Source: Porphyromonadaceae bacterium FC4 | Lineage (GTDB): Bacteria > Bacteroidota > Bacteroidia > Bacteroidales > Porphyromonadaceae | Assembly (NCBI GenBank): GCA_900120395.1 | Contig: LT635553.1 | Location: 424,186 to 488,185, forward strand | Length of the DNA stretch: 64,000 nt | Reading direction: 5' to 3' | In this document: piece by piece, positions 3,348 to 58,662 of the stretch | Position numbering within the stretch: the stretch's first letter is position 1 | Layout of the letters: every line of letters begins with the position of its first letter | Position numbers and translations under genes: made by a program | The notes under the pieces: generated by a model | Seen by the model: only the letters and a program-made list of their open reading frames with translations | Told to the model about the DNA's origin: nothing | The model's database searches: none

Positions 3348-4715
3348 TTACTTGCCGGTGCGCTTCTTTGCCTCCGCCTTGAAGCAGTCGCCTCGGTGCT
3401 CGTAGTTGTGAAACAGATCGAACGAGGCACAAGCCGGTGAGAGGAGAAATGTGTCGCCCTCCTCCGTCTTGATCCGGTCCAGTACGCCAAAGGCATCCGT
3501 CATGCTTCGGACATCGTATGCCGGGATCGGCAGGGCGTCAAAGGCTGCGTGGAGCTTTTGGGAGTCGGTGGTGAGGTAGATGAGCGCTTTGCACTTTTGC
3601 TGCACGAGCGGGAGGATCTGTGCATAGTCGTTGCCCTTATCCGTGCCCCCAAGGATGAGGATGGTGCGGTGGTCCTTCATCGCCCCGAGAGCGTAGTGGG
3701 TGGCATCGATATTGGTGGCCTTGGAGTCGTTGATGAAAGTGATGCCGTGCCAGGCGCCTGCCGGCTCCATCCGGTGCGGGATGCCGGCGAAGTGGTCGAG
3801 GGCTTTTTGGACCGTGCCATCGGATAGCGACTGGTCTGCGCCGAGGGCTCTTAGGACAAGGCAGGCTGCCATGACGTTGGCAGCGTTGTGCTCGCCCTTG
3901 AGCTGCATCCGGCTGTAGTCTATAGTGGCAGTGGAACCGCTGTTTAGGCGGAAGTGTAGGACTCCGTCTCTGTAGTACGCCGTGGCGGACTCGTCCTCAA
4001 GCGAGAAGGTGAGCTCCTGCGAGTGAAGGGCGGGGGAGCGTTCCACCAGCTGCCGGGAGATGGGGTCGTCGAGGTTGAGGATGTGTAGGTCGCCGGGGGT
4101 CTGGTTTTGAAAAACGCGCCACTTGGCATCGGCATACTTGTCCAGACTGTGCTCGTAGCGGTCGAGGTGGTCGGGGGTGACGTTGAGGAGGGCGGCTACG
4201 TGGAGCCGAGTGTGGTACATGTGGTCCAGCTGAAAGGAGCTGAGCTCGATGACGTAGTACCGGTGCGGGTCAGAGGCGACACAGCGGGCGAGAGAGGTGC
4301 CGATATTGCCACAGGCTATGGCATCTAGTCCGCAAGCACGCAGGAGGTATGCCGTGAGGGTGGTAGTGGTGGTCTTGCCATTGCTACCTGTGATGCCTAT
4401 GAGCGTGCTGTCGCCTACGAAGCGTGCCGCGTACTCGGGCTCCGAGAGGATGGGGATGCCTGCTTCCTCGCAACGTCGAACCACGGGGGCAGTGTCCGGT
4501 ATGCCCGGGCTCTTGATGACGGCGGTGGCGTGCTCGAGATCGGGGAGCGTGTGCCCACCCTCCTCGTAGGGCACGTCATTTTTGATCAATAGGTCGCGGG
4601 TCTCGGTCAGGAGCGTCCCGCTGTCGGAGAGCAGTACACGGGCACCTTGCTGCTTTGCCAGTAGTGCACTCCAGAGTCCGCTCTCTCCTCCTCCCAGTAC
4701 AATGATGTAATCCAT
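3348..4715 (-). CDS. murD: UDP-N-acetylmuramoyl-L-alanine--D-glutamate ligase
   Basis: 455 residues, normal for MurD. It adds D-glutamate to UDP-MurNAc-L-Ala in the cytoplasm during peptidoglycan synthesis. The N-terminus has a Rossmann-like start (IIVLGGGESGLWSALLA). The Mur ligase ATP site GITGSNGKTTTT is at residues 107-118, and the central domain (LNVTPDHLDRYEH) and C-terminal ligase domain (FINDSKATNIDATHYAL) are typical. The gene starts 7 bases after mraY in one operon from ftsL. In most Bacteroidota ftsW, murG, murC, ftsQ, ftsA and ftsZ follow; here the operon stops and repeat copy 1 follows the stop codon. Confidence 0.97.
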   Translation of the reverse strand: MDYIIVLGGGESGLWSALLAKQQGARVLLSDSGTLLTETRDLLIKNDVPYEEGGHTLPDLEHATAVIKSPGIPDTAPVVRRCEEAGIPILSEPEYAARFVGDSTLIGITGSNGKTTTTTLTAYLLRACGLDAIACGNIGTSLARCVASDPHRYYVIELSSFQLDHMYHTRLHVAALLNVTPDHLDRYEHSLDKYADAKWRVFQNQTPGDLHILNLDDPISRQLVERSPALHSQELTFSLEDESATAYYRDGVLHFRLNSGSTATIDYSRMQLKGEHNAANVMAACLVLRALGADQSLSDGTVQKALDHFAGIPHRMEPAGAWHGITFINDSKATNIDATHYALGAMKDHRTILILGGTDKGNDYAQILPLVQQKCKALIYLTTDSQKLHAAFDALPIPAYDVRSMTDAFGVLDRIKTEEGDTFLLSPACASFDLFHNYEHRGDCFKAEAKKRTGK

Positions 4716-10486: not shown

Positions 10487-10525
10487 AAGCCGCCCGGAGT
10501 CGCACAGTGCGACTCCGGGCGGCTT
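10487..10525 (-). terminator. Strong hairpin downstream of tmRNA
   Basis: A 19-bp perfect inverted repeat (10487-10505 with 10507-10525, rich in GC) lies immediately past the tmRNA 3' end. No long T-run follows on the minus strand, so it may be a processing or stabilising hairpin rather than a classic terminator. Confidence 0.6.
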
Positions 10526-17240: not shown

Positions 17241-17397
17241 CAAAAATAATTCATATCCCGCAAAAGGAGGCTCATTCGCCCTACTTCGTAATATGAATGG
17301 CGACTCCGCCAGAGGTCGTTTCTTCATAGCCGGGTGGTCGAGGAGGGGCGAATGCCCCGACGAAGACCCCCGGGAAGACGAATGCCCCATTAATCCC

Positions 17398-17745
17398 CGA
17401 CCCCGCTAGGGGTCGAACAACCTAGCCCCGGGTCATAGCTCCGAAGGAGCGTCTGACCCGGGGTGACCGATCCGCTCTTGCACCCCGACCCCGACGCACG
17501 TCGGGGTCGTACAATGGCATCTGAAGGTACGACTCCAACGTCCGTCGGAGTCGTGTTTTGGGGAGAGCTCGTCTTCCCAGGGTCAGATGCTCCTTCGGAG
17601 CTCTGACCCTGGGCTATTGATGTATGACCCCGACGAATGTCGGGGTCAATACTCTGTCCGTCCTTTTTCCGAATACTCAACTGCGAAAGAACGACCCCGT
17701 AGGGGTCGAACAATTTACAGCTACGCAGGAGGACCCCTACGGGGT
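17398..17745. repeat. Array of eight palindromes (REP-like), non-coding
   Basis: Eight stem-loops in 348 bases: CGACCCC/GGGGTCG at 17398-17415 and 17692-17708 (both followed by AACAA); CCCGGGTCA/TGACCCGGG with an inner GCTCC/GGAGC at 17426-17463 and its variant at 17576-17613; GACCCCGACG/CGTCGGGGTC at 17487-17508 and a relative at 17625-17648; ACGACTCC/GGAGTCGT at 17529-17554; ACCCC/GGGGT at 17733-17745. Three of the types occur twice, in the order A-B-C...B-C-A, so the block may have arisen partly by duplication. No coding frame is credible. The 120 bases before it (17280-17397) hold similar but shorter imperfect repeats. Confidence 0.8.
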
Positions 17746-17756
17746 GCTGCTGACCA

Positions 17757-17850
17757 ACAAAAAGTTTCCAGTAGGAAAGAGTTCGCTTCTATCCGTGAAA
17801 CGTTTCTCTTTCCTACCGGAAACTTTTGGCTACTATCCGTGAAACTTTTT
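17757..17850 (+). repeat. Interspersed 92-bp tandem-hairpin repeat, copy 4 (rearranged)
   Basis: The first hairpin has the loop in the opposite sense (GTTTCC-AGTA-GGAAAG) while the second is in the usual sense (CTTTCC-TACC-GGAAAC), so the two hairpins are inverted copies of each other. Both ends, CAAAAAGTTTC and GAAACTTTTTTG, form a terminal inverted repeat. The outside arm typical of the family is on the right (ends CTGTTTTTCAG at 17900), opposite to what the inner units predict. Confidence 0.88.
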
Positions 17851-17909
17851 TGCTATCGGGTAGTGCTGTTTTTCGACATCCGTATTTGTCTGTTTTTCAG
17901 AGGGTATGG

Positions 17910-20282
17910 TCAGAGATCGGTGAGGGTGAGCGGGGTGTCGGGCGTAATGGTGTGCGTGGTGCGGGTACCGTCACTGTGTAGGAGCTCAAAGGTGGCGGAA
18001 GGTAGACCGGTGCTGAAGGTGGCAGAGGTGGGGTGACCCTGCTCCCAGGTGAGGTCTACGATCACCCCACCGCGAGCGACCAGCCCCGTGTACGAGCCGG
18101 ATGCCCACTCGTCGGGTAGCGCAGGTAGCAGCTCGATGAAGCCCTCGTGGCTCTGGAGGAGCATCTCGGCAATGGCTGCTGTGCCGCCAAAGTTACCATC
18201 GATCTGGAAGGGCGGGTGGGCGCAAAAGAGGTTGGGGTAGGTGCCGCTGGAGTGCTTGGAGCGATCAGCGGGATCGATGGCAGGGTGCAGCAGGCTCGCC
18301 AGTAGCTTGTGTGCGCGGTTACCATCCTTGAGACGTGCCCAGAAGTTGATCTTCCATGCGCGGCTCCATCCGGTGGCTTCGTCCCCGCGTCGGTTGAGGG
18401 TCATCTCGGCAGCCTTTGCCAGGTCGGGTGTGTGGTGCGGGGTGATCTGGTAGCCCGGGTAGAGGCCGTAGAGGTGCGACACGTGGCGGTGGTGCGGCTC
18501 CGCCTCCTTGTAGTCCTCAAGCCACTCCTGCAGGTAGCCCTCCTTGCTGATCTGGTGTGGTGCCAGGCGGGGCAGGGCGTTTGCCATACGGGTGAGTGCG
18601 GGGTCGTAGACGCGGAGGATAGCGGCGGCATCAAGGGTGTTGTTGAAGAGCTCGCGGATGATCTGCATATCCATGGTGGGTCCCATGCAGACGTAGAGCG
18701 GGCCCTCGCCCTCAGCCGTGATGAAGCCGTTTTCGGGCGAAGAGGAGGGAGCGGTCACGAGCCAGCCGTGGGTAGGCTCCTCGATGAGTGAGGCGAGGAA
18801 AAACTGTGCTGCCTCGAGCATCACCGGGTATGCCTCTCTGAGAAAGGCGGTGTCGCGTGTGAAGGCGAAGTGCTCCCACAGGTGCTGGCAGAGCCATGCT
18901 CCGCCGGTATTGGTGGCACCCCATGAAGCGTGCTCTCCAGGGGCTGTGAAGTGCCAGGGATTGGATATCGGGTGAGCGACCCAGCCCTCGGTGCCGTAGA
19001 AGGTACGAGCGGTACGCCTGCCACTGGGGACGAGGTCGCGTGTGAAGTCGAGCAGTGGCTCGTGTAGCTCGCTGAGGTTGGTGACCTCGGCGGGCCAGTA
19101 GTTCATCTGCACGTTGATGTTGAGGTGGTAGTCGCCATTCCACGGGAGCTGGGTATCCTTAGCCCACAGTCCCTGGAGGTTTGCCGGCCAGGAGTCGGGT
19201 CTCGAAGAGGAGATGAGGAGGTAGCGACCGTAGTTGAAGTACAGCGCCACAAATGCCGGGTCGTGCGTCTCCGCAAAGCGTGCCAGCCGCACGTCTGTGG
19301 GGAGTTGGTGGGTCGTTGTATCTGCGGCGGAGAGCGAAAGGGTTACCCTTCCGTAGCCCTCCTCGTAGCCGGCAATGTGGTCGCGGAGCAACTCCTCGTA
19401 CTCCACGCCCTGTAGCTTGTCGAGCTCTGTCGTCGGGTCCTGAGGGTTGACTCCGGAGGGTGGGGTGTTGTCCGTAGCGGCAGCCACGAAAATAAGCACT
19501 GCATCGGCATCGGCTATGGTGACGGCATCATCGGTGGTGCGGACTGCACCTCCCTCTGCTACAAAGCGTACCTCGGCTGAGAAGTTGGTCCCCCGGTCGC
19601 CCCCAAATCCATCGGGAAGCTGTCCTCTCATGTAGAGCCGTCCGTCTCGTGCTGTGCAGGTGGCGTTTTCGGGACGGGTGAGCTTGGCAGAAAAGGAGAT
19701 CTGCCCCTTGCGGTCTGCACTCAGGCGGATGACGATGACATCCGGCTCGCCCTGGCAGGCGAAGTAGGTGCGGGTGTAGTGGGTCGAGTCGATATCAAAG
19801 AAAGTGTGCGCCAGAGCGGAGTCGAGGAGGAGCTCGCGCTTGTACTTCGTCGGGTCGGCTGTGGGTAGGCGGTGCTCCAGCTCGAGGTAGCCGAGTACCT
19901 GGTAGGAGCCGTAGGGCTTATCGGCACCGCTGCCAAACGAACTGCCCTCTCCACCGCACTGGAAGTGCTCGTACATCAGCTGCTGTGCCGTGGCGTTGTC
20001 TCCGTGCAGGAGTGCTTCGCGGATGGGCTTGAGGTACTGCTGTGCCGTGGGGGAGAAGGCGGTGCTGTCCGGGCTGCCGCTCCACATGCTGATGTCGTTG
20101 AGTGGGATCTTTTCGGTCCGGATGTCGCCGGCTACGGTCAATCCGAGTCGTCCGTTGCCGAGGGGGAGGCTGCTCTCCCACTCTTGGGCAGGCCGGTCGT
20201 ACCATAGGAGGTTGCTCTGGGCAATGCCCGACAGAGGCAGCAGGGTGCCAAGCAGGAGGAGCAGAAGTCTTGATGAAGTCAT
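17910..20282 (-). CDS. Glycoside hydrolase family 95 alpha-L-fucosidase
   Basis: 790 residues from [12 protein letters not shown], which gives a clean signal peptide (cleavage after SGIAQ); the upstream ATG is rejected. [24 protein letters not shown] is the GH95 N-terminal signature; later come [50 protein letters not shown] and [18 protein letters not shown], all typical of the family's (alpha/alpha)6 barrel and surrounding regions. GH95 enzymes release alpha-1,2-linked fucose (or galactose) from host or milk glycans by inversion. It is exported to the periplasm. It follows the chromate-transporter pair by 4 bases and ends just before repeat copy 4. No SusC/SusD pair or sensor lies nearby. 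Confidence 0.93.
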
Positions 20283-20286
20283 AGCA

Positions 20287-20814
20287 CTATATGTATACAA
20301 TGTATCCTGCGACTCCGGCAAGGACGATGAGCAGGATGGGGTGAATCTTTTTGGAAAGGACAGCCACAAGGGTCACGAAGAAGAAGATGTAGCTGACCGG
20401 GTCGATGAAGTTTTCTTTATTCATGAGGATCAGGGCGGCAGCCATGATCAGTCCCACGCATGCAGGGCGTATGCCGGCAAAGACCGCCTCGACGTGGGCG
20501 TTGTTTTTGAAGCGAGCAAAGGAGAGCGAGATGAGCAGGACGAGCACAAAGGAGGGCAGCATCACTGCCAGGGTGGCTACGATACTCCCCCAGACCGAAC
20601 CGGTGACCGTATAGCCGATGTAGGTGGCGCTATTGATACCGATGGGGCCCGGGGTCATCTGCGAGATGGCGACAATGTCGGTGAACTCCTGGATCGTAAG
20701 CCAGCCGTGGATGTCCACCACCTCCTCCTGGATCAGGGTGAGCATGGCGTAGCCTCCGCCGAAGCCGAGGAGCCCGATCTTGATATAAACGAGGAAGAGC
20801 TGTAGGTAGATCAT
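20287..20814 (-). CDS. Chromate transporter half-protein 2 (CHR domain)
   Basis: 175 residues from [14 protein letters not shown], overlapping the first half-gene by 4 bases (ATGA). One CHR domain: [20 protein letters not shown] then [18 protein letters not shown], with about six membrane segments. In two-gene CHR systems the halves form a heterodimer. Family members export chromate, but many natural substrates are unknown. Nothing in the context points to chromate resistance. Confidence 0.88.
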
Positions 20815-47474: not shown

Positions 47475-47518
47475 AGAGTCGGGGCTTGTGCCAAAAAGCG
47501 CAAGCCCCGACTCTTTTC
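47475..47518. terminator. Bidirectional terminator
   Basis: A perfect 14-bp stem (47475-47488 with 47501-47514) between convergent genes, with TTTT on the plus side and A-rich sequence on the other side that reads as T on the minus strand. Confidence 0.85.
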
Positions 47519-50401: not shown

Positions 50402-50446
50402 ATAAAAACTCCACCCACATCATACGAAAGGATGATGTGGGTGGAG
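50402..50446 (-). terminator. Rho-independent terminator of the TPR/OmpA-like lipoprotein gene
   Basis: Perfect 15-bp stem (50409-50423 with 50432-50446), followed on the minus strand by TTTTTATT. Confidence 0.92.
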
Positions 50447-58612: not shown

Positions 58613-58662
58613 CAAGAGGGTGTGCCGGAGCATGAGTCTCCGGCACACCCTCTTGCCTTTTT
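58613..58662 (+). terminator. Rho-independent terminator of the PpiD-like gene
   Basis: Perfect 18-bp stem (58613-58630 with 58638-58655), then CCTTTTT. Confidence 0.93.

Follow-up and report, generated by a model that had tools for sequence, protein, structure and literature searches.

The palindromic array that fills the gap between tRNA-Gln and the 3′ end of a gene labelled a fucosidase in an earlier, sequence-only reading of this DNA is probably a cluster of REP-like non-autonomous elements. These elements would belong with, and be mobilised by, the one TnpA encoded in the genome, an HUH/Y1 enzyme of subclass 1.2. The system is REP/RAYT-like in its working but is built on a subclass-1.2 TnpA and, by protein class, is not RAYT, because this protein carries the motifs of subclass 1.2 and fails the RAYT model. 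REPs and their RAYTs are a model of how a domesticated transposase persists together with a population of tiny non-autonomous DNA replicators. Subclass 1.2 is described without typical IS ends and without REPs, the relevant table of Quentin 2018 giving ‘no’ for REP and the subclass being generally without typical terminal structures (PMC6006769, in part).

Within the window, by which is meant the whole 64 kb stretch of DNA that was analysed, sequence inspection and a hairpin scan recovered, at 17398–17745, all eight strong palindromes that had been placed there by the sequence-only reading, two of them nested. The array itself starts at about 17301, some 100 bp to the left of the start given by that reading, with a degenerate short hairpin that 8 nt separate from a TAG, followed by a long hairpin of type A (Table 1). 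The folding energy of 17320–17760 (441 bp) is −243.1 kcal/mol, whereas 100 dinucleotide shuffles average −163.4 (sd 6.9), which puts the array at z −11.5, and four of the 17 hairpins of the 64 kb window (stem ≥7, loop 2–6) fall inside these 441 bp; the palindromes of the array are therefore far above chance. Separate folding z-scores from mononucleotide shuffles were given no weight. The claim that three types of palindrome each occur twice stands for the CGACCCC..GGGGTCG-AACAA type, which is found twice in the array, but needs correction for the other two. The second long nested palindrome, with arms CCCAGGGTCA/TGACCCTGGG, is an inverted copy of the first and does not repeat CCGGGTCA literally; the two GACCCCGAC palindromes differ slightly in their arms. 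The description of ‘mixed types’ lying side by side also needs correction: all three belong to a single unit as its modules and are not independent repeats.

Table 1. Anatomy of the array, in window coordinates
Feature	Position	Strand	Remarks
Degenerate short hairpin (CGACTCCGCCAGAGGTCG), opens type-A unit	17301..17318	+	From sequence; 8 nt before TAG
TAG, type-A unit	17327..17329	+	
Long nested hairpin, type A	17330..17373	+	Unit A profile: 76 matches (E ≤1e-5) in 32 of 40 own-genome sequences
Short hairpin S1, common to two units (closes A, opens B1)	17398..17415	+	
TAG, unit B1	17423..17425	+	7 nt after S1, immediately before long hairpin
Long nested hairpin, unit B1	17426..17463	+	
Closing hairpin S2, unit B1	17486..17509	+	
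Closing hairpin S2, unit B2; tail-to-tail junction B1/B2	17529..17554	-	Window pair, gap -4
Long nested hairpin, unit B2	17576..17613	-	Inverted copy of 17426-17463, with matched two-sided change
TAG, unit B2 (CTA on +)	17614..17616	-	8 nt from B2 short hairpin
Opening short hairpin, unit B2	17625..17648	-	
Short hairpin of a partial unit	17692..17708	+	Followed by 9 nt and CAG (17718-17720)
Final short palindrome of array	17733..17745	.	

Abutting the array, at 17758–17855, is another dispersed repeat, about 96 bp long, for which at least 68 genome BLAST matches were found at E ≤0.01, at least 40 being strong (E ≤1.3e-23, self included; 40 of 264 first-look candidates scored). GTTTCCAGTAGGAAA occurs eight times in the window, and a stretch similar to the repeat abuts a B unit beside the tnpA gene (L039, about 3829–3915). 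Other long perfect stem-loops of the window, with stems of 14–18 bp, lie at 2033–2067, 2273–2310, 10487–10525, 47475–47514, 50409–50446 and 58613–58655, that at 10487–10525 adjoining the tmRNA gene.

Copies of the array's components are dispersed throughout the 2.12 Mb genome (G000; four contigs), in which the pattern CGACCCC-N2..10-GGGGTCG forms an exact hairpin 179 times and the reversed control pattern 0 times. The palindromes are thus not unique to the window locus, which was a test set beforehand in the sequence-only reading. As a BLAST query, the array block returned 213 genome matches at E ≤10, a count inflated by palindromic double hits; merged by eye, these represent at least about 45 cluster sites, most of which are covered by the 39 stretches that were fetched. 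By a crude rule (ORFs ≥120 aa), 42 of 43 clusters are intergenic, and the hairpins are therefore high-copy, mostly intergenic palindromes of the kind that defines REPs. The genes around the 43 clusters are in tandem in 25 cases, divergent in nine and convergent in eight, with one cluster inside an ORF; under the same rule, no bias of gene orientation was seen, convergent pairs included.

The repeat unit is ordered as a short GC hairpin, 7–9 nt, TAG or CAG, a long nested hairpin, a spacer and a closing short hairpin. Profile searches of 40 sequences, comprising the 39 genome stretches and 5 kb of the window, found 65 copies of unit B (~122 bp; E ≤1e-18) in 26 sequences and 76 matches to unit A (~113 bp; E ≤1e-5) in 32. 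Neighbouring units are joined either by common hairpins or as inverted tail-to-tail doublets, in a BIME/REPIN-like manner, and 34 of the 65 B units stand in such doublets, the inverted pairs by which REPs are recognised. The foot of the B long hairpin, readable in 57 of 65 copies, is NTAG in 45 (GTAG itself in 4), NCAG in 10 and ATAA in 2. When 59 of the 65 B units are aligned, 19 consensus pairs emerge, three of which are changed on both sides. Two of these two-sided changes are large (29 C-G versus 29 A-U; 29 C-G versus 29 U-A) and divide the B units into two subtypes, although they may reflect few events.

The genome holds a single PF01797 gene (E ≤1), at C4:787647–788075, which is outside the window and about 300 kb past its end. 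The frame is intact, with 142 codons, and the gene sits in a dense repeat cluster with unit repeats on both sides (L039 2080–3830), as is characteristic of an enzyme gene of the RAYT/TnpA_REP kind. Together with the 179 hairpins, the presence of this Y1 transposase gene within a repeat cluster supports the REP/BIME-like character first suggested for the array. The protein has the motifs DHVH, WQ and YIENQQKHH, the catalytic HUH, WQ and Y being intact in sequence, and on these predicted motifs it fits subclass 1.2 of Quentin 2018 (DH[VI]H, WQ, Y---Q--HH; PMC6006769, in part). Its closest solved proteins by sequence are IS200/IS605-type transposases, ISHp608 included, and it passes the IS200/IS605 model NF033573 (76.9 bits, cut-off 55). 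The RAYT model NF047646 gave 35.2 bits against a cut-off of 80, with no match anywhere in the genome at E ≤1e-15, and YIENQQKHH does not have the Y..NP motif; on these grounds a class-2 RAYT identity was rejected. The expectation of a RAYT-like, IS200/IS605-type transposase was accordingly borne out as far as one Y1 gene in a repeat cluster is concerned, but not as to a class-2 RAYT, the TnpA being of the subclass-1.2 type. A single copy agrees with the low copy number of subclass 1.2, and the one PF01797 match is not the set of several near-identical tnpA-bearing copies expected of an IS.

The biochemistry of IS200/IS605 elements and REPs (PMC8266576, PMC8612924, both in part) suggests how such repeats could spread. 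TnpA would bind the hairpin on single-stranded, probably lagging-strand, DNA, and its tyrosine, Y114, would cleave at, or by means of, a TAG-containing site. The released strand would then be rejoined elsewhere, preferentially beside existing hairpins, and rejoining of this kind would generate both hairpin-sharing units and inverted doublets. The shared hairpins and tail-to-tail doublets fit this strand-rejoining model, short of proof. At the window locus, the array is probably neutral, with at most side effects on neighbouring mRNA.

Among 12 genomes of the genus, a TnpA match (E ≤1e-5) is present in four and the GACCCC hairpin in five (G000 179, G010 82, G005 29, G001 5 and G006 2 hairpins, the control pattern occurring once in G005). 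All four TnpA genomes are among the five hairpin genomes (Fisher p 0.010, without phylogenetic correction); the fifth, G010, has no TnpA match in an assembly that is 53% complete. G025, of a second genus of the family, has two hairpins. In G012 and G035, also members of this family, a TnpA match goes with zero hairpins of this particular GACCCC pattern, which counts against the link between the two. The tnpA flanks of other genomes match repeat populations that lie chiefly in the genome of origin or in a sister of it. With the G005 flank as query, 95 matches were found in G005 versus 14 in G001, 13 in G006 and 0 in G010, and with that of G001, 75 in G001 and 66 in G006 versus 14 in G005, 1 in G000 and 0 in G010. 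A tnpA flank from a distant genus had 58 matches at many places in its own genome, and five further genomes, including three congeners, gave 0 each.

The order of short hairpin, spacer, TAG and long hairpin recurs across the genomes of the genus with quite different hairpin sequences. It was counted 71 times in G000 (spacing 7 in 30, 8 in 27 and 9 in 7; TAG in 59 and CAG in 12), a few of these being due to chance, 21 times in G005, always at 9 nt, and 11 times in G001/G006, always at 7–8 nt. The same rule gave 0 in G010, where the arrangement is visible by eye with an interrupted long stem (L195–L197). Because the stretches were chosen by flank or block similarity, the weight rests on the comparison between genomes and not on counts within them. 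The tsaD neighbourhoods of 11 congeners (1.5 kb each side) contain neither tRNA-Gln nor GACCCC hairpins, and therefore no orthologous empty site is demonstrable.

A wider sample consisted of 29 order-level and 80 named loci (the best 80 of 573), and so represents best-scoring, not random, relatives; the named records are mostly Bacteroidota, with some titled Ignavibacteria, Verrucomicrobia, Planctomycetes, Calditrichota and other groups. At 35 loci (six at genus level, including our own, and the 29 at order level), the Y motif was readable in 33, of which 32 fit subclass 1.2 (L089 does not), and a DH[VI]H/NH[VI]H pattern was found in 28. Direct flank repeats (E <1e-6) are present at 21 of the 35; the 14 without paired repeats at this threshold include some at a contig end. 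In the named set, paired flank repeats occur at 27 of 64 testable loci (16 of the 80 were not testable) versus 11 of 232 random positions, a contrast that may be overstated, since most of the random positions fall in genes. Among the loci with paired flank repeats are L148, L163, L166 and L175, whose subclass-1.2-like TnpA genes come from records under the titles Calditrichota, Verrucomicrobiales, Planctomycetaceae and Anaerolineales; all are MAGs, in which mis-binning is possible.

Less open to inflation by genic controls are the offset of TAG and the comparison with class-2 RAYT loci. Hairpin density is 2.6/kb in tnpA flanks (114 loci) versus 0.66/kb in control stretches (73 loci). Over 810 hairpin sides, the distance of TAG from the hairpin foot peaks at 8 nt (74) and 9 nt (82), with 2 to 11 at each other distance in the range 0–15. 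A TAG at 8/9 nt is present at 57 of 90 testable loci (out of the 109 best-scoring), on both sides in 16 of those 57, and this signature is absent from 33 of the 90, which counts against the link with TnpA. At the same 90 loci, TAG is found at 3/4 nt in eight and at 13/14 nt in eight, and only 3 of 101 control windows have it at 8/9 nt. At class-2 RAYT loci from the same order, hairpins are about as dense (2.7/kb), but just 3 of 26 testable loci (of 30) have TAG at 8/9 nt. Fisher tests on such counts take the loci as independent, though they are related. GTAG-type feet are rare at the short hairpins of the distant loci.

Two other origins of the array have to be weighed against mobilisation by TnpA. 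The repeats could be MITE-like elements moved by some other transposase, the TnpA gene having merely landed in, or preferring, existing hairpin clusters. ISPpu9, which inserts in the REPs of Pseudomonas putida (PMC8450116, in part), is a precedent, and the many hairpins of G010, with no TnpA match, would agree with such a history. It is nevertheless an unlikely one: many lineages that differ in hairpin sequence have the same spacing signature at their subclass-1.2 genes, and this signature is rare at class-2 RAYT loci despite equal hairpin density, whilst the repeats of each genome match its own tnpA flanks and TnpA is single-copy in our genome, unlike an active IS.

It is far less probable still, indeed very improbable, that the hairpins serve neighbouring genes by terminating transcription or stabilising mRNA, and have been kept for this function and not as mobile repeats. 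Terminator-like sites number 2 versus 1.0 ± 1.0 in shuffles, a result on which terminators were rejected as the origin of the array, and among known RNA families only tRNA reached the Rfam gathering score. The strong folding, the position of the array where the minus-strand ORF 17910–20369 has its 3′ end, and the T-rich tail that follows the hairpin 17708–17692 on the minus strand would all suit a terminator. Against one, the clusters have no bias towards convergent genes, and copies of the same 113–122 bp units are found at many sites. The preferred explanation remains a set of non-autonomous elements belonging with the subclass-1.2 TnpA.

This explanation invites comparison with systems already described, for which we draw on parts of the papers cited. 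REPs, BIMEs and REPINs with a class-2 TnpA_REP (RAYT) are exemplified by the group 2 REPtron of Escherichia coli (PMC8266576, PMC6006769, PMC3733652). The present system resembles the E. coli type in its many intergenic palindromes, inverted doublets, irregular long-hairpin stem, AG-ending tag at the foot and single Y1 gene within a repeat cluster. It differs in that its enzyme is of class 1 (Y---Q--HH) and fails the RAYT model, its units are 113–122 bp long with three hairpins, and its key signature is a TAG 7–9 nt beyond a hairpin, with a GTAG foot confined to 4 of 57 long hairpins. The motifs DH[VI]H, WQ and Y---Q--HH, the low copy number and the occurrence in Bacteroidetes are shared with TnpA_Y1 subclass 1.2; unlike that subclass as described (PMC6006769), the tnpA studied here stands amid a large population of repeats and matches it. 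Genes for TnpA of subclass 2.6 and class 3 have atypical hairpins on their flanks that do not follow the GTAG rule and are also found elsewhere, one class-3 genome having about 600 copies (PMC6006769). Such flanking hairpins and dispersed copies are also seen here, but the enzyme classes differ, as does the foot (CnGA in class 3; PMC6006769).

The closest solved proteins are of the kind found in the IS200/IS605 elements IS608 and ISDra2 (PMC8612924), which share hairpin ends and, presumably, single-strand transposition with the present system. Those elements, however, are IS that contain several genes or move by themselves, with TTAC or TTGAT targets (PMC8612924), whereas our genome has a single copy of the gene together with a large population of non-coding repeats. 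BrickBuilt and other MITEs of Porphyromonas gingivalis (PMC4596501), from a possibly related host, are likewise intergenic, dispersed and non-coding, but have IS5-type terminal inverted repeats, tandem repeats of 23 or 41 nt and about 10–20 copies (PMC4596501). No report of REPs for subclass 1.2 was found in the parts of the open-access literature consulted.

A broader proposal, which we consider evenly balanced, is that subclass-1.2 TnpA and hairpin repeats constitute a phylum-wide REP system of Bacteroidota, separate from both IS200/IS605 elements and class-2 RAYTs. Its code would be a GC hairpin with TAG at a fixed 8–9 nt beyond, TAG serving as the cleavage or guide site; in the genus of the window, a second long hairpin would have been added exactly at the TAG, converting simple REPs into chained composite units of 110–125 bp. 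A common hairpin-spacer-TAG signature provides the orphan subclass 1.2 with candidate substrates and a directly testable cleavage site, and may connect IS200/IS605 elements with RAYTs. A different arrangement was seen at four loci (L103, L155, L166 and L173), at which subclass-1.2-like TnpA genes have inverted, not direct, flank repeats of 43–57 bp, recalling the ‘TIRYT’ arrangement (PMC3733652, in part).
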